Positions 32,075 to 43,148 of a DNA stretch of 64,000 nt are shown in pieces. The translations under genes and the position numbers were made by a program. The notes beneath the pieces are model-generated. The model searched no databases. It saw only the letters and a list, made by a program, of their open reading frames with translations, and was not told the DNA's origin. The stretch lies in the NCBI GenBank assembly GCA_024345305.1, contig BRON01000007.1, positions 744,001 to 808,000 on the forward strand. Reading direction: 5' to 3'. This stretch comes from Mrakia gelida (taxonomy: Eukaryota > Basidiomycota > Tremellomycetes > Cystofilobasidiales > Mrakiaceae). How positions within the stretch are numbered: the first letter of the stretch is position 1; each line of letters opens with the position of its first letter.

Positions 32075-32517
32075 CGCAGGAAGAAGTGGAGAGGGAGGAA
32101 GGGAGGAGAGCTCGAAGCGAGGAAGCGAGGTCGACGTTGGAGGAGACGAAGACAGCTCGCAGCTTCGTCGCCTTCAGGCCGGCCGAGAAAAACTTCAAAA
32201 GACGAAATTCGGTTCGCGAGTTCAAGAGCTTGCGTGAGATCAGTCTCCTTGCCAATCTGGTTCAATTTTTTCTGTCTTCGATCTGCCTGGACGACCTTGA
32301 TTCCGCCCATCCAAAACGGACGAGCTCACCTCCGACGACCATCTTCTCCCTTCCTGCCTGTTTCCTTCAAGCACCTTCTCGTTCTCACAAAATCATACCT
32401 CGGCATCTATACTACCAGTGAGTACAACCTCGTACTTTCGTATGCTTCCAAGGAGACGCTAATCGTCTTCCCTTCTCCCTCTCTCGCTCCCCTCCCTTCC
32501 CCCCTCCCCTCCCAGCC
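32075..32517. other. Divergent spacer
   Basis: Between the receptor-like gene and the F-box array. A first exon with the receptor's signal peptide might lie here but none could be fitted. C/T-rich leader before 32518. Confidence 0.4.
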
Positions 32518-35100
32518 ATGTCTCTCCTCTCGATCCCCAACGAACTCCAGTCCGGAATCTTCGCTATCCTGCCTCGAAAAGATCTCGTCAGCCTCATCCA
32601 AGCTTCAAAGCATCTCCACGACGTCTCCATCAAGATCCTCTACCGAAAGGTCGTGCTCAACCGATGGGATCACCTCCACTCCTTCTTCATTCCTTTCAAC
32701 AACGCCTCGGACGTCAGGGAAGGCAGAAGACTCGAGCTGGAGTGCATCAAGGAGCTCTGGATATCCCTGAAGGGCACACCCTATCTCTGCGACGCTCTCT
32801 ACCCCATCCCAAAACACTTCGAGCTCGCTCCGATCTCCATCCCGATCCTGCGAGTCGCCATCACCCACAAGTACACCCTCTCTCCACTTCTCGCCGCTCT
32901 CAAATCGTCGGACTTCCAAACAACCCGTTTTGGAGGTAACTCTTGGGATTCCCCAGCATCTCCCTCCTCGCTGGCGGAGGATGTATTGAGACGAGAGCTT
33001 CGAATCAACGTCTCGGCCATTCAGCCGTTTTGTCTCTCCAAGTTCGTTGAACTCCTGACGGACTTGAGGTCGGATGAGCTCACCTACGTTCTTCTGCAAG
33101 GGCGGAGTCGTCTTCGTGAAATCATCGCTGACGAAGTCGGTGAGTGCACCACTGCTCTCGACTCCCCTTGACGACGCGCTGACCGTCTCCTTCTCTTCTT
33201 CCTCTCTTTCAAAGACTCCCTTCACCGAAGGATCTCACAGCTTGGAGTGAGATGCACCCCTTCCCTCTCCTCGATTTCTTCCGGCTAACCCTACTGTTCT
33301 TCGCCTTCACTCAGCTCGCAACGATCCACTCTCTCCCCACCGAGCTCCTCTCCCAAATCCTTTCCTATCCCACCGAATACACCCAATACACCCTTCTCTC
33401 CTGCCTCCTCGTCAACCAGAGGATCCACGATATCGCCGTACCCATCCTCTACACCACGGTCGTCTTCAAGACTTGGCCGAGCCTCGAGTCGTTCTTCTCC
33501 CCGAGCAAGATCTTCCCGCCTGGATCGGAACTCGCCGTTCGACACGCGGAGAGGAGGAGGGAGGAATGGGATGGCCTTCGAGACATCGAGATCAACTTCA
33601 GCTTCAACTTCGCCCGAGGGTATATTGGCAGCAACCCTCAGATCCCGACCTCGGGGTTCTTCCCAGTCCCTCCCTCCCTCAAGTCGGACCCTCTCGTCGT
33701 CCGAAACATCAAGGTCAGATACCCCTCGGCCTGGAAAGCGTATTCAAGATCCCTCGCCCCTCCTCACCCTTCTCTCCTACCTCCATTCGAACACTTTCGT
33801 CCTCGCGTCCGAGTCCGTTCCAACCAAGATCGTGGACGCTACAGTGGAGGAGCTGGTCGCGTCGAAGGCTCGAAAGGAGCTCGGTCACAAAATCGGCTCG
33901 AGGCATCGTTTTTGCGCGACGACCCTCATGGACTACCTGATTGAGTTGGATCCGGAAGAGCTTCTTAGATGCACGCAGACTCCTGCGCTCTTCAAAGTCA
34001 AGTTGAGAGAGGCCATCGGTTCGTCGTGTGCTCCCCTCCTCGTCTCGTCTCGTCGCCTGCCCGCAACGTCGCTGACCTTTCTTCTATCTTACATCTTTCT
34101 CTCCAGTACTCTTGCATGATAACATCTCATCGGAAGGGGTGCGAGCGTCCTCTCTCGATCTCGAATCGTCCTCTGCCTGATGCTGACCTCGACCTCTGCT
34201 CGTTCTTCTCTCCTTCAGCTCGCGACGTTCTCCTCTCTTCCTTCCGACCTCAAGAGCCGAGTCCTCTCCTACCTTCCTTTCTCCTCCCTCCGAGCAACGA
34301 TCTACATCTCGAAGGATTTCTACTCCGCTACCCTTCCCTTCCTCTACAACCTCGTCACTCTTCGAAGCTGGAAACGCGTCGAATCGTTCTTCTTTCATCC
34401 TCCCTCGAACCCCGCAACCCCTCTCGAGGTCGCCGCCAGGATCAATAACAGAAGATCGGAACTCCGTCTCGTCAGACACCTCGTCCTCGACTTCCAATCC
34501 GAATGCAACACCTCGAACGGAACCTCGATCGACCTCGCGTCAAGTCTCTCGCCCTCCTCCTACCTTACCAGCAACCCTCTCCTCCTCTCCCGACTCACCA
34601 TCATCCATTATGACCTCCTCGATCCTCTCCTCCCCATCCTCAGGTGGCTCAACCCCTCCTCCCTCGCCGTCCAGTCCCTCGGAGGATACTACACAATCGA
34701 TCCAACCTGGCGAACCCTCGTCTCCTCCCTCCCGTCCTCCACCTGGACTCGAATCACCCACGTCGAACTCGGAGTCCATCACACCCAACCCCTCTCTCCC
34801 ATCCGATCGAACCTTCTCGCTTCGTCGCCGTTCAGAGAAGCCTCGTCAGGCGCGCTCTCGCTTGCCGGAGGAGCAGGAAGGGGAGTCGATTGGAATGGAC
34901 CGAACGTCGTTTCGCTGTTCAACGCGATTTGTCCTCGATTGGAGAAGGTCAAGGTCGTGGTGCCGTCGTCGACGAAGGGGATGAAGAAGACCGTGCAGCA
35001 GATGTTGAAGGAGAAGGGGTGGGACGAGAAGTGGGAGAGCCTGGAGGTTGTGACGAGCAGTTCGTTGAAGTTGAGGAAGGCGGCGAAGGTTGCGAAGTGA
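32518..35100 (+). CDS. Three-unit F-box-like gene (or tandem array) with frameshifted middle unit
   Basis: F-box-like proteins bring substrates to SCF ubiquitin ligases. Three homologous units occur head to tail. Unit 1: exons 32518-33139 and 33215-33246, starting MSLLSIPNELQSGIFAIL. Unit 2: 33315-34018 and 34107-34138, starting LATIHSLPTELLSQILSY. Unit 3: 34219-35100, starting LATFSSLPSDLKSRVLSYL and ending AAKVAK. Units 1 and 2 both end in a 32-nt exon, and the introns leading into units 2 and 3 both join in phase 0 to CTCGC(A/G)ACG, with CTAAC or CTGAC branch sites, so one spliced transcript is the best fit. Alternatively three genes overlap by a few bases (stops 33288 and 34180, ATGs 33252 and 34180). 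Unit 2 needs a 1-nt frame change between about 33717 and 33755, so the middle unit may be a pseudo-unit. Confidence 0.65.
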
Positions 35101-35697: not shown

Positions 35698-36615
35698 TTA
35701 GAGGGCTGTGGAAGGAGAGGAGGGGAGGGAAGAGGGTCAGCGAAAAGAGAGACGACGACACGTTTTGATGGTTTTGACTGCAATTCTGCGTACGGTTAGC
35801 TCCGTTTCGAAGTCCCTCGGTGATGGGCTCGTCCGCGTCGAGAGGGTTGGCCCCGTTCCTCAACTGGAGGAAGAAAAGGAGGGGGAAGGGTCAGAGCGGA
35901 AGGAAACGAAGACGCGTCGCGGCTCATCTGACTTTTTCGGCGAGCGAGGACTTGAACTGGAGGAAGAACAAAACTCACGCCTCGGGTCTCGACCTCCCCG
36001 TCCTCAGACAAGGGGTTGGCACCATTTCGAAGCTGAAGGCGAGAACACGAAGGAAGGAAGAGAAGAAAGAGTCAGAATTGAAGATCGCGTCGCTCGAGGA
36101 CTGGAACGGTTGATCAACGAGACTTACACCTCGGGTTTCGACATCTTCATCCTCACCGAGAGGATTAGCCCCGTTTCGAAGCTGGAGAAAGGAAATGGAA
36201 AGGGAGAGCGGAGAGGAGGAGGCAGGGAAATAGATGGAAAGGGGAAAGGTCATGATGGGAGATCGGAACGAAGACGACGAAGGTTGGAGGACACTCACCC
36301 CTCGGGTGTCGATGGGAGCATCGTCCGAAAGCGGATTCGCTCCGTTGCGCAACTGTGGAAGGGAAGAAACGACGAGAAAGAAGGGAGGGGAAGGTCAGCT
36401 TCAGTTCGTCTCCCCTGACCTCGTTTCCCCTCTCCCCCCATCTTCATTCTCCCTGCCAGTTTTCCCAAAGTTCCATCCAGGTGCGAGAAGGATAAAGGGA
36501 TGTATAGACTCACTCCTCGAGCAGCAAGCTCAGTTCCAGTAGAGCCAGGGACAGGAAGGGCAAGCGCGACGGAGGCGAGGGAGAGGAGAGCGAGGAGGGA
36601 CTTGGAGAAGAGCAT
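35698..36615 (-). CDS. Secreted repeat-peptide precursor with five GLRNGANPL copies
   Basis: Not a family I recognise. Exons 36514-36615, 36299-36352, 36128-36181, 35979-36032, 35794-35863, 35698-35705 (113 aa). Exon 1 encodes a signal peptide (MLFSKSLLALLSLASVALA), then LPVPGSTGTELAAR. Exons 2-4 are each exactly 54 nt, phase 0, and encode LRNGANPL, an acidic spacer and TRG (spacers SDDAPID, GEDEDVE, SEDGEVE). Exon 5 holds copy 4, the spacer DADEPITE and the start of copy 5, which an 8-nt last exon completes as PL-stop. Because each preceding exon ends in Gly, the invariant unit is GLRNGANPL. Copies 1-4 follow Arg (copy 1 AAR, the rest TR) except that the fifth follows TE. This is the layout of a precursor cleaved into identical peptides (pheromone, signalling or RiPP-like), but processing and role are inference. 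Confidence 0.85.
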
Positions 36616-37937: not shown

Positions 37938-40900
37938 CTAGATCGACTCTACCGAATCGTTGTCCTGAAACGGGGCGTAATCCATCCCAGCTCCTCCTCG
38001 TGCGACCTTGCCCATCCATTCCTCGTCGCTGTCCTCGCCAGCTTCGAACCCTTGTCCTCCGAAGTAGGAGAGGAGGACGGGGAGGAGGACCAGACCGTGG
38101 AGAGCTCCGGCGACGATGAGGGAGAGCCACATGCGGAAGAAGTAGACCTGTTCGAAGAAAGGGGAGGAGGAAGAGGTCAGGTCGACGAAAACGAAGAGAG
38201 AGCGAGAAGAGGGAAGATGAATCGAAGGGAAGGAGAAGAGAACTCACCTCGAGAAGTTTCGATCTCGTGAAAGCAAGGACTGATACTCCGATGAGCTTCG
38301 TCATGGTGATTCCAGAGAAGACCTGCGCGAGAAGAGAACGAGGAAAGAACGAGAGTCAGAATCGCGTCAAGACTCGACCTCGACCGAACGGAAGTGAACA
38401 CTCGACTCACCGACGCTCCCACATCCACCAAAGCCGACCAAGCTCTTTCGTCCCTCTCCTTAGGTCCCGAAGGATGATCGAACGGCAGTCCTCCTCCTCC
38501 AGCTCCCATGAACGCTCGAGCGACATGGGAGCAGAACTCGACGGCGATTCCGAGGGAGATGACCAAGTTGACGAGGGAGATAGCGTTGAGACTGATCCCC
38601 CAAGCTCCCATCATCCCCATGACTTCGAAGACGACGAGAGCGCAGGTGAGGGTGACGACAGCTCCTGTTCTCCACGATCCGAGGAGGAGGGAGGTGACGA
38701 GGAGGATGGAGAGGAGAGCGAGGGAGAGGACTTGGACGGTGATGGAGACGACGTGAGCGTACTGAAGATCGAAGACGAGGAAGAGAAACAAGGTCAGCGA
38801 GAGCTGAGGAACGAAAGAGGAGAATAGAAGACTCACCTGATCGAAAAACACGTAGAAAAGCGAGTAAGGATAAACCGTCGCTCCCGTCCTCCTCGAAAGA
38901 TCGTCGGCGACCCTCCTCGCAGCCGCGAGAGCATTGATGAAGTCCTCCTGAGTCTTAAGCGGGGTGTGGTACGTCCTGAAGTGGGAAGCGACGACCGACG
39001 AGTTGTCCGCCGACAGCGAGATGGCGTTCCCGTACGACGACTTCCCTCCCAACGGGCATTCCTCGTCCGTCGGACTGACCAGCCAGTGTCGAAGGTACTT
39101 CATGAACTCCTCTCCCTCCGGAAGTCCTCCCATGGTGATGTCGAACGGCGGCTCGTGGTCGAGGAAGCAAGGCTTGCATCTCCTCTCGGGGTCTCTCGGG
39201 GTGCAGAAGACGTCTGGGTCGTCGATCCGGACTCGACAGCAGGTCTCGAGGACGGGGTTGAGCCAGTTGAGGAAGTCGTCGATCCATACGGCGGGAGGGT
39301 TGGCGATGAAGGAGACGTCGGGTCGTTTCCGTTCGGCCTCGAGGGTGTTGGCGATGGAGAGGTCTTGACACGTCGTGAACCTCCCGCAGAGAGCTTGCTG
39401 GCCTGACCGAGAGGAGACGTCGACGTGGTCGGCGATAAAGTAGACGGGTGGACCGACGTCGAGGTACTTGTCGAGAGCGTCGAAGTAAGGGACGAGGTAT
39501 GAGTCCGAGGGGAGGGCGAGACGTTGATCTGAAGAAGGGAATAAGACTCGTCAGAACCGAAGTCGCGTCTCGATTCGAGATGCGAAACCGAGCGGAGCTC
39601 ACCGAGTCCGAGATCGATCCTCTGCACTCCCATGGCAGCAGCGAGGAAGAGTCCAGCGAAGGCGACGACGACTGCGCTCTTGACCTCCTTCTTGAGCAGG
39701 AAGGGAGCGTAGGACCGACGAATGAATCGCGAGATCATGCCTTCTCCGGAGTGGACTGGTGCTGGAGCGTCGTAGAGTCCGATGGGAGGTTGAAGCCTGA
39801 TGCATGGGAAGCAGTCCATCCGAGTCGCCTGTCCAAACAACGAGAAGGAAGATCAGTTCGCGGTCGACGAAGAAGAACTCAAAGAAAACGAGATCGAACT
39901 CACCTCGACCCTCTTCAGATCCAAAGTCATCGCACTGACGAAAACCGTGACTTGAAGGACAGCGTCGAGAGCCACACTCCCAGCGGCGTAGAGAGCGAAG
40001 TTTCGAACCGCAGGCATGGGTACCAAAGCTCCGAGAGCGAACGCGACCGTCTCCGTCAACGAACTGAGGAGGATCGACGGTCCCATCCTCGCCAACGATC
40101 TCGCGACTCGTTCCTCCGGCGAGAGGTACGACGGACTGGCTTCGTCGTCCACCTCGTCATCGTCGTCGTCGATTCCCAAATCGTCGGCGAAGGAGTCCTC
40201 TCCTGGGTGGGAGATCTGACCTGCTCGAGCGACCGAAGCTCTCGACGCGCCTGGACCGTGGATGGCGTTCTGCCTGTTGAGTTCGTGGACGAGGATGAAG
40301 ATGTTGTCGACTCCGACTGCGAGGACCAGGAAGGGGATGACCTCGGCGATGATGAGAGTTACTTTGACACCGAGGAAGGAGAAGAGTCCGACGGAGGTTG
40401 AGATGGCGATGAGGACGAGTGCGATTCCGAAGAGTCCGAGTGTGAATTTGGAGTTGACCGAGAGGAGGGTTGGGAGGAGAGAGAAGAGTCTAGCGAGACG
40501 TGTTCGGAATCGAAGGGTTGGAGGTGGGATGGTGGAGGAGGGACGACTTGGGTCGGCGGGAGGAGGACCGACGAGTCGAAGGAGGACGGGGATGTGAACG
40601 ATCTTGTCCCAAAGCGAAGGGAAAACGCCATCCTCTCCGAAGAAGAGAGCCCAGCTCGATCCTCCTGATCCTCCGAGGGTGAGCGAGATGTAGAGGAACA
40701 TGACGACGTAGCTCAGAACGACGGTCTTGTAGTCCGTGTTGGTGCTCTTGTTGAGTTCCTCCTCGAGACTGACTCCCGTCGAGAACGCGATCCACGCTCC
40801 TCCCTCCTCCTTCGCCGACTTGGCCAAAGCCTCGAGGTACTCCCTCAACGTCCTCTCCCACTCCTCCGCTCGTTCGAGAGCCTTGGGATCCAACGAGCCG

Positions 40901-43148
40901 TTGACGACGAAGGTAACGACCATGCTCTTCGCATCCGTCCATCCCTTCCCTTCCTCGACTCCTCCGAGGACGAACTTGGGCTCGATCGGCTGTCCGAAGT
41001 CAGGAAGACACTCGGCTGGAGCCTTGGCGCATCCTTCGACCGTCTCCTCCCACGTATCCTCGTCGAGGTAGCCTTGGAACCACGCCGAGACGGATTGGAC
41101 GACGCAGGGAGTTCCTGGTCCGGCTGGCGAGAAGCAGACGTCCTGGAAGGTATAGCCGTTGGGGTAGGATTTGAGGGAGGTGATGGCTTCCTCGTGCTCG
41201 AGCCACCAGTCGAGGCGAGCGTACGAGAGGACGGGTTCGGAGGGATTGGGGAGGGAGAGGAGGTCGTCGCGGTTCTCCTCGTCGTCGTCCGCGTCGAGGG
41301 AGGAGGGAGTTGAAGAGGAGGATTCGACTGGTTTGGTGAGGGAGGATGAGGAGGATGAGGAGGCGGTGATGAAGATTTGCTGAGGTCGGAAGAAGGGACC
41401 GAAGTTCTCGTCGAAGTGGTTCTTCTGGAGGACGGCCTCGGATCCAGGTGCGACCCAAAGACGAACGGGATCCGTTTCGATGGCGAAGGATTTCCAGCCG
41501 AGGTTGAGGAGAGTGATCACCATGGAGGCGATGATGAAGGTGGGGACTAAAGGGTAGAAGGGAGGATGACAAAGCGAAGGTCAGGAATCAGCTCGAGAGA
41601 TACGCGTCGAAGATCGGTTGAGTGGATTGCTGCTCACAAGGCCTCGTCGCACAGAACAACCCAAGATGGTAGAAGAAGCTTCGAAGAGCGACGTTGACCT
41701 TGCTCTGTCTCGGTTGAAGAGCGTCGATAGGATCCAGCAGGCTCGCTCCTCGTCCCATCCCAAAGTGGCTCGATCCACTCCTCCCGCTGTTCGGATACGA
41801 GTCTCGATCTCCCGTTCCATCCTCGTCTGCTGACCTATCCCTCCCTCTCTTGAGTCCATCGACGATTCCAATCCTCGGCTGCGACGTCGTTGGCGACAGA
41901 GGAGCTCCCTCGCCGTCTATGTCCTCCTCGAGGTGACCTCCGTCTTCCCCAGCGAGGAGGGCGAGTCGTTCGTACCTCCGTTGACGAGCTCGGAGGGTGA
42001 GGTTGAAGGAGTAGGCGAGCAGGAGGGCGAGTACCGAGATTCCGTAGATGAGGATGAGGACGAAGGAGGTGCAGGACATGGATCCGATGTGGCATCTTGG
42101 GTGGTGAGGAGGGCGAGGAGGAGGGAGGTAGGGAAGGGTCGGGCAGATCGAAGGACAGTCGACGCAGGTACATCTGGCCGAGATCATGGACGAGTCCGAG
42201 CACGAGAGAGGGTTCGGGTTTACTGGCGTGATCTCCTCCTCGTTCCCTGGTGGTATCGACGACGAGGGATCCGGAAAGTTGATCTGGAAAGGACTCCCAA
42301 GTCCTGGACGCTCCGTCCCCATGTACTTCAAGAAGCCCAACGAGGTCTTTGCTCCTCCTCCGATGAGATCCATAGCGAACGAATTGGTAGCTCCGAACTG
42401 GACGTCTTTGCAGCTGTCGTAGAAGCCATCCCTGAAGTTGTCCGAGACGAAGACGTCGAGTTCCTTGACGGCGATGGTTTTGGCTGCACCGACGGGTTGG
42501 GTTTCGACGACTCGGAGGAAGGTGGATTGATCTGGGGAGCAGGTGAAGTGGCAGTAGAAGGATCGGAAGTTGTTTCGGCAGGCTGGGCAGGAGGCGATGA
42601 TGCTATCAGTCAAAGAAGGAAGGTAAAAATGAGCTCGAGCGCAACGAGGGAGGAGGAGAGGGAGGAGGTTTGGAGGAAGGGACGAACGGTTCAGCTTGAA
42701 GGAGGTTGTCTCTGAGAGCTTCCACCTGGTCTTGAGTGCAGCAGACGGTGTCTGGGACGTCGAAGGAGGGTCCGCATACGTTGGAGAGGAGGGTGGCGAG
42801 CTCGTTGGTGGTCTGAGAGCAAAGAAGAGGGAGGTCAAGGGAGGAGGGAGGGAGGGACGAGATGGTCAGCTCTCGTTCGACTCTCGGTTCGACCTAGCGA
42901 AGTCCGACAATCGATCCCTTCTTTCTCCCAGACAGGCCTCTATACACAGTCTAGCTCTTCCTCGACAAAAAAGCTCGAACCAAAGCGGTAGGGCTGAAGA
43001 AAGAGGAGTGAAAGGATGAGACCGTTGAACTGACCTCATCTGCGTCTCCGTCGTCCGGACAAGGAAGTTCAGGTGTGAAGATCGACTTCTTGCCGCATCC
43101 TCCTCTCATGGCGCAGATCCCTGGACCATGGCGGGTTGTCGAATTCAT
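37938..43148 (-). CDS. NCR1: NPC1/NCR1 intracellular sterol transporter
   Basis: Lysosomal/vacuolar RND-family membrane protein moving sterols out of the lumen with NPC2. Nine exons: 43035-43148, 42688-42812, 41638-42602, 39904-41546, 39603-39828, 38837-39528, 38411-38761, 38248-38322, 37938-38147 (1466 aa). The N-terminal sterol-binding domain shows GGCGKKSIFTPELPCPDDG, NVCGPSF, CCTQDQV and CPACRNNFRSFYCHFTCSP. The sterol-sensing domain includes FLVLAVGVDNIFILVHELNR. The second lumenal domain (CRVRIDDPDVFC, CKPCFL) and late helices (GISLNAISLVNLVISLGIAV) follow. An acidic insert (DDDDDEVDDE) lies in the loop after the VGVDN helix. The chosen start, MNSTTRHGPGICAM, gives no signal peptide although the family needs one, so the extreme 5' end is probably incomplete. 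Confidence 0.93.

Follow-up and report, generated by a model that had tools for sequence, protein, structure and literature searches.

Basidiomycete a-type pheromones carry a C-terminal CaaX motif with Cys and have no leader, and rhodotorucine-type pheromones are farnesylated, Cys-ending and leaderless, with a repeated peptide that contains Arg-Asn-Gly. The alpha-factor-type precursors of ascomycetes are secreted and multi-copy, with acidic flanks at the cleavage sites and the last peptide near the C-terminus. To our knowledge, few peptide signals other than those of mating are known in basidiomycetes. Synthesis of the a-type pheromones is described as cytoplasmic and prenylated (PMC9769878), and Rep1 of Ustilago maydis, a basidiomycete repeat precursor, is cut by kexin (PMC8528282).

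Kex2-processed repeat proteins (KEPs) have a leader, several near-identical short repeats with cleavage sites between them, and no other domain. The sites were defined as KR or RR, then KK, in one survey (PMC6339444) and as KR, KK, RK or RR in another (PMC7329392), and the method sections of both stay with dibasic pairs; the first of these papers allows that some species without KEP hits may use unusual sites. Later Kex2 searches were altered by wider motifs, according to a paper that cites both surveys (PMC8528282). For Kex2 itself the same paper gives Arg almost exclusively at P1, a flexible P2 and a preference for Leu or another aliphatic residue at P4, with LxxR as the extended motif. For KEPs of Coprinopsis that were expressed, products have been reported that apparently arose by cleavage at single Arg residues (PMC9769878).

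The two genes described here, as predicted, appear to be an undescribed pair of secreted repeat-peptide precursors, KEP-like in organization, with monobasic sites and, for the most part, a small exon for each repeat. We know of no family that covers a precursor of GLRNGANPL. The strings GLRNGANP, LRNGANPL, GLRNGANPL and RNGANPM were found in none of the open-licence PMC full texts searched.

Structure of the two precursor genes

The window analyzed was a stretch of 64,000 nucleotides (C7:744001-808000), and searches were extended to the whole genome (34.86 Mb in 25 contigs). Gene A lies on the minus strand of the window, from an ATG at 36615 to a TAA ending at 35698, and its six exons, joined in frame, give a predicted product of 113 residues with five copies of GLRNGANPL (hereafter the core) and acidic spacers between them. 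These positions, the six exons, the five copies and the residues ahead of copies 1-4 (AAR, DTR, ETR and ETR) had been listed in the original prediction and were recovered exactly; copy 5 is preceded by Glu. The exon models of gene A, and of gene B described below, were predicted from DNA sequence alone (Table 1). A putative leader and pro-region, MLFSKSLLALLSLASVALALPVPGSTGTELAAR, stand ahead of core 1, and the leader cleavage point, after ALA, was placed by eye. Windowed hydropathy peaked at 2.45 and 2.76 in the putative leaders of the two genes.

Table 1. Positions of the predicted precursor genes, their parts and other genes mentioned in the text (positions without a contig name are those of the window).
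Feature	Position	Strand	Content
Gene A, exon 1	36514..36615	-	start codon, putative leader, pro-region, Gly of core 1
Gene A, exon 1, putative hydrophobic leader	~36559-36615	-	MLFSKSLLALLSLASVALA
Gene A, exon 1, short pro-region		-	LPVPGSTGTELAAR
Gene A, exon 2	36299..36352	-	54 nt; core 1 LRNGANPL, spacer SDDAPIDTR, Gly of core 2
Gene A, exon 3	36128..36181	-	54 nt; core 2 LRNGANPL, spacer GEDEDVETR, Gly of core 3
Gene A, exon 4	35979..36032	-	54 nt; core 3 LRNGANPL, spacer SEDGEVETR, Gly of core 4
Gene A, exon 5	35794..35863	-	70 nt; core 4 LRNGANPL, spacer DADEPITE (without Arg), GLRNGAN
Gene A, intron 5	35706..35793	-	88 nt; GTACGC...ACAG
Gene A, exon 6	35698..35705	-	8 nt; Pro and Leu of core 5, stop codon
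Gene B (predicted)	C7:694143-695996	+	11 exons, 228 residues, 11 copies of GLRNGANPL
Two F-box-match ORFs close to gene A	32422-35097	+	one match just at the cut-off, one below it
NPC1-like sterol transporter gene	39856-42865	-	NPC1_N, NPC1_MLD and sterol-sensing matches
STE3-type receptor gene	C16:465013-466017
STE3-type receptor gene	C16:503471-504508
Kexin gene	around C2:3001431-3001835 and adjoining ORF		Peptidase_S8 and P-domain matches

All five introns of gene A are of the GT-AG type, and the donor of exon 3 is GTAAGT. Introns 1-4 are in phase 0 and fall at the same point of the core, between G and LRNGANPL, so that exons 2-4 would each supply one 18-residue unit per 54 bases. The 3' end of exon 5 is the first base of the Pro codon of core 5. 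The fifth copy is complete only if the 88-base intron is removed and exon 5 is joined to the 8-base last exon, and core 5 is thus splice-dependent: the spliced form reads GANPL-stop, and the unspliced frame GLRNGANRTQ... Since exon 6 holds nothing else than Pro, Leu and the stop codon, the last residue of the predicted protein is also the last residue of its fifth core.

Gene B was found by a whole-genome repeat search, about 84 kb from gene A on the same contig. Its exons join across GT-AG introns. Its putative leader, MIVPTSIVLTVLSLVSVVSA, is not that of gene A, and its spacers include ATSSAIEVITAR, DATPTAIDAR and SEESVESR. The last unit keeps a nine-residue spacer tail up to the stop, and the protein ends in VSA. 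Each core lies in a small exon with its Gly set apart, except for core 1 of gene B, which is inside exon 1, and for the fourth and fifth cores of gene A, which share exon 5. Gene B and this layout are new beyond the original prediction. On this arrangement, in which a small phase-0 exon carries one repeat, the main text of PMC7329392 does not use the word "intron", nor that of PMC9769878 the word "exon".

A codon-degenerate DNA pattern for LRNGANP was matched exactly at 15 places in the 34.86 Mb, each of them in gene A or B, and the reversed control pattern gave none; an intron interrupts the sixteenth core, which therefore escapes the exact pattern. Given these counts (15 against 0), the repeats are not due to chance. 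With one mismatch allowed, 23 matches were obtained, against 4 for the control pattern. Of the 23, 15 were the exact ones and one was the fifth core of gene A. The remaining 7 were considered as related cores and were unrelated when seen in context. One of them, GDECYCDSALRNGANST, is near the core in sequence and lies in a WSC-like stretch (domain named by eye); its likeness to the core is probably due to chance.

Two features of the introns were also searched. The donor layout CGNGGNGTRAGT occurred at 181 places genome-wide, against 80 for its control, and among the 100 matches listed, which run from contig C1 into C8, clusters within 1 kb were found only in gene A (4) and gene B (10). The motif GACGCG is present in 10 of the 15 introns of both genes, and was dropped as an intron signal because, on the downstream side of the region's GTRAGT sites, it is scarcely more frequent than its complement (42 against 41).

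Constancy of the core and change in copy number

The 16 cores of genes A and B are one peptide in 14 DNA spellings. At least 21 nucleotide changes separate the cores, and all of them are synonymous; over the 14 spellings the mean pairwise pS is 0.80 and pN is 0. Random change would be expected to be synonymous in 28.7% of cases, which for 21 changes gives about 4e-12, a rough value because the copies share ancestry. Retention of the same peptide through 14 spellings indicates that selection maintains it. The spacers of the two genes differ in sequence and in length (8-12 residues), and the constancy of the core beside them marks the nonapeptide as the conserved element. The original prediction of a secreted repeat precursor whose product is the repeat is supported by this invariant core with spacers that turn over, and no Pfam family reached the cut-off in either precursor.

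Two 171-base exon-intron units of gene B, at 695260 and 695431, are identical, introns included. The unit at 695089 differs from these neighbors by 2 bases, both in the exon, and when the gene B region was compared with itself shifted by 171 the longest exact match was 355 bases. The near-identity of these units points to recent tandem amplification in gene B. The number of tandem units at C7:695089-695652 may vary among strains.

The lengths of the unit exons (exons 2-4 of gene A and 2-10 of gene B) are divisible by three, so that copy number can shift by unit duplication. Tandem duplication of exon-intron units would in this way change the number of copies and hence the dose of peptide. In wall proteins, too, copy number commonly changes by duplication of units, and on that analogy the two genes could encode an uncut structural protein of the wall or surface, in which the repeat is a module and not a product. 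Against this stand the constant context of the Arg sites, the short and hydrophilic core and the exact end of gene A at a core, and we consider a structural protein quite improbable.

Putative cleavage sites and proposed release of the peptide

Arg directly precedes 15 of the 16 cores, core 5 of gene A being the exception. Residues P4-P1 are LAAR, IDTR, VETR and VETR in gene A and VEAR, ITAR, VEAR, IDAR, IGAR, VAAR, VGSR (three times) and VESR (twice) in gene B. The form [LIV]-x-[AST]-Arg fits all 15 Arg sites of the two genes, with Ala at P2 in 7, Ser in 5 and Thr in 3. When compared with the extended Kex2 motif, an aliphatic P4 with Arg at P1 occurs at 15/15 sites and the strict Leu at P4 at 1/15; of the five best alternative P2 residues for yeast Kex2 (PMC8528282), Thr alone occurs here, and Ala and Ser are outside that set. 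Adjacent basic residues were found in neither protein. The lack of KR sites, listed in the original prediction among the features that fit no nameable family, extends to every dibasic pair, but it need not mean that Kex2-type sites are missing. A kexin gene is present in the genome (Table 1). The context of the Arg sites resembles LxxR, and cleavage by Kex2 is proposed on this motif fit together with the presence of kexin.

Release of the peptide from the precursors is likely on these grounds. Kexin in the Golgi would cut behind the single Arg and leave units that start with GLRNGANPL, and carboxypeptidases that halt at Pro-Leu would then, perhaps, remove the spacer tail from the C-terminal side. 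In gene A, cores 4 and 5 would be expected to stay joined, because Glu and not Arg precedes core 5. The absence of a protease site at the C-terminus of the core counts against a free nonapeptide, as the spacer tail may remain. The mature product could accordingly be the whole unit of 17-21 residues, with GLRNGANPL as its head and the spacer as its tail, and the spacer that the last unit of gene B carries up to the stop is in keeping with this. The tails, on the other hand, range from 8 to 12 residues and differ in sequence, the last copy of gene A has none, and identity halts sharply at the last residue of the core (Leu, or Met in the outside homologue P0001 described below); a whole-unit product is possible but on balance unlikely, and trimming to the nonapeptide is preferred.

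Genes A and B resemble KEPs in the several near-identical short repeats, the putative sites between them and the lack of another domain, and their putative leader would match that of KEPs. A KEP is required to have at least three near-identical repeats, and 5 and 11 copies were counted here. The sites of KEPs are dibasic, whereas each site of genes A and B has one lone Arg, in the context [LIV]-x-[AST]-R, and for this reason the genes are regarded as KEP-like in working and are not counted as KEP members. The proposed likeness to alpha-factor or Kex2-repeat logic holds, in that the predicted precursors would work as those of alpha-factor or KEPs do. Like alpha-factor-type precursors they are multi-copy and, as predicted, secreted, with acidic site flanks and the last peptide near the C-terminus; unlike them they have neither KR nor a run of XA or XP for STE13, and no likeness in sequence was noticed.

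Other known precursors match less well. With rhodotorucine-type pheromones the genes have in common a repeated peptide with Arg-Asn-Gly, but they lack Cys and have a putative leader; a rhodotorucine repeat had no match in the genome, a result that is uninformative by itself. The features of a-type pheromones are likewise missing, since the proteins end in NPL (gene A) and VSA (gene B), contain no Cys and start with a putative leader. Rep1 is, as here, a repeat precursor of a basidiomycete, but its peptides form amyloid-like fibrils, and GLRNGANPL is short and hydrophilic.

A further comparison was made with the CLE peptides of plants. Read from the cleavage-site Arg, RGLRNGANPLSD fits the CLE pattern at R1, G6, N8, P9 and L10. 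When a 134-kb region was translated into 261,585 residues, the pattern [SNTGK]G[PAS][ND]P[LI] was seen 15 times, each time in a core of gene A or B. Multi-domain CLE precursors are described in legumes (PMC5570945) and in the fungus Gigaspora rosea (PMC11538016), and these also combine a leader with a repeated short peptide and a G-x-N-P-L stretch. Of the six highly conserved CLE positions (1, 4, 6, 7, 9 and 11; PMC5570945), however, 4, 7 and 11 are unmatched in the core, cutting by kexin would remove R1, and the likeness was spotted after the fact. Mimicry of plant CLE peptides is thus extremely improbable.

A homologue outside the genome

A single relative was found in 5.8 billion proteins, the candidates scored being the best 7,996 by words in common, 3,382 and 899 in the respective searches. 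This protein (P0001, from ENA; 105 residues, on one 4,695-base contig) has GLRNGANPM three times, with 8 of the 9 core residues kept, and its spacers, like AVTTTAAAVDAR, differ from those of genes A and B. VDAR precedes each of the three cores, in agreement with [LIV]-x-[AST]-Arg (3/3). All three lie within one open frame, and the layout of one exon per repeat is therefore absent there. The source of P0001 could be a close relative of the present fungus. Rarity of homologues says little here, as the protein collection may be poor in intron-bearing fungal proteins.

When the P0001 units were searched against the whole genome, gene B was the sole hit, and viral contigs scanned with P0001 yielded 17 pattern matches, none of them a relative. 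The original prediction had staked its case in part on the nonapeptide being conserved in homologues; gene B keeps all nine of its residues and P0001 eight.

Genomic neighborhood and receptors

ORFs of at least 200 residues were scanned around both genes (10 of 24 around gene A and 8 of 13 around gene B). Matches near gene A were to F-box, NPC1-type sterol-sensing and Kelch families, with a weak match to ACR_tran below the cut-off; near gene B a kinase was found, together with a weak F-box-like match, also below the cut-off. The two F-box-match ORFs and the NPC1-like sterol transporter gene are placed in Table 1.

The neighborhood bears on a RiPP product, as had been suggested for gene A, in which clustered enzymes would cyclize the core or modify it in some other way, as they do in dikaritins. 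A signal peptide followed by a repeated core is also found in ustiloxin-type precursors (PMC7329392). The same source states that dikaritin- or ustiloxin-type RiPPs need Tyr in the core, and Tyr is absent from the core and from both proteins. UstYa (DUF3328), whose gene is expected nearby in such RiPPs, had no match genome-wide in a search run without a positive control, and none of the 18 ORFs scanned, of 37 long neighboring ones, was recognized as a tailoring enzyme. The suggestion has so far found no backing, and we hold a RiPP to be very improbable.

Two STE3-type receptor genes were found on one contig (C16), about 38 kb apart, and no match to STE2 was found in a genome search run without a positive control. 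This agrees with the basidiomycete context assumed in the original prediction, and the genome is probably that of a basidiomycete. The two STE3 genes may reflect homothallism, a second, non-mating receptor or the presence of both mating types in the assembly. Aromatic ammonia lyase (PF00221) had no match in the genome in a search whose controls were found in 5 of 14 cases; red yeasts such as Rhodotorula have this enzyme.

Proposed role of the peptide

The explanation that we favor, and hold with moderate confidence, is that the products of genes A and B are secreted precursors, each with several copies of a linear peptide which is cut by kexin after Arg and serves as a self-signal. The freed peptide would act extracellularly, among cells of the same fungus. 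We infer this signalling role for GLRNGANPL from the sequences; since the peptide has been kept constant, signalling within the species is the most plausible guess.

The main rival is action on other organisms, in which the same precursor is cut in the same way and the peptide targets a host plant, an animal or a competing microbe. KEP knockouts of Coprinopsis grown in pure culture were without a phenotype, and their authors suggest roles directed at the biotic environment (PMC9769878), and effectors are among KEP products (PMC7329392). An arms race would, we think, favor varied copies, and the 16 copies are invariant, those of P0001 being nearly so; moreover, no biosynthetic or effector gene was recognized in the 18 of 37 long neighboring ORFs that were scanned. 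A target in other organisms is for these reasons rather unlikely, and signalling among cells of the same fungus is retained as the preferred reading.

A broader form of it is offered only tentatively. GLRNGANPL might be a conserved non-mating signal of a basidiomycete lineage, encoded as exon cassettes in two linked genes whose kexin sites are monobasic, its dose being set by the number of unit exons through tandem duplication and possibly by frame-neutral exon skipping.

If the proposed release and signalling are correct, genes A and B would represent a class of precursors passed over by surveys that demand dibasic sites; surveys of that type, as defined in PMC6339444 and PMC7329392, would miss single-Arg precursors with LxxR-like sites. 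Together, the placing of single repeats on separate exons and the recent duplication of whole units show how such a precursor gains copies. GLRNGANPL would then be a concrete candidate ligand in basidiomycetes, and one that is cheap to synthesize.
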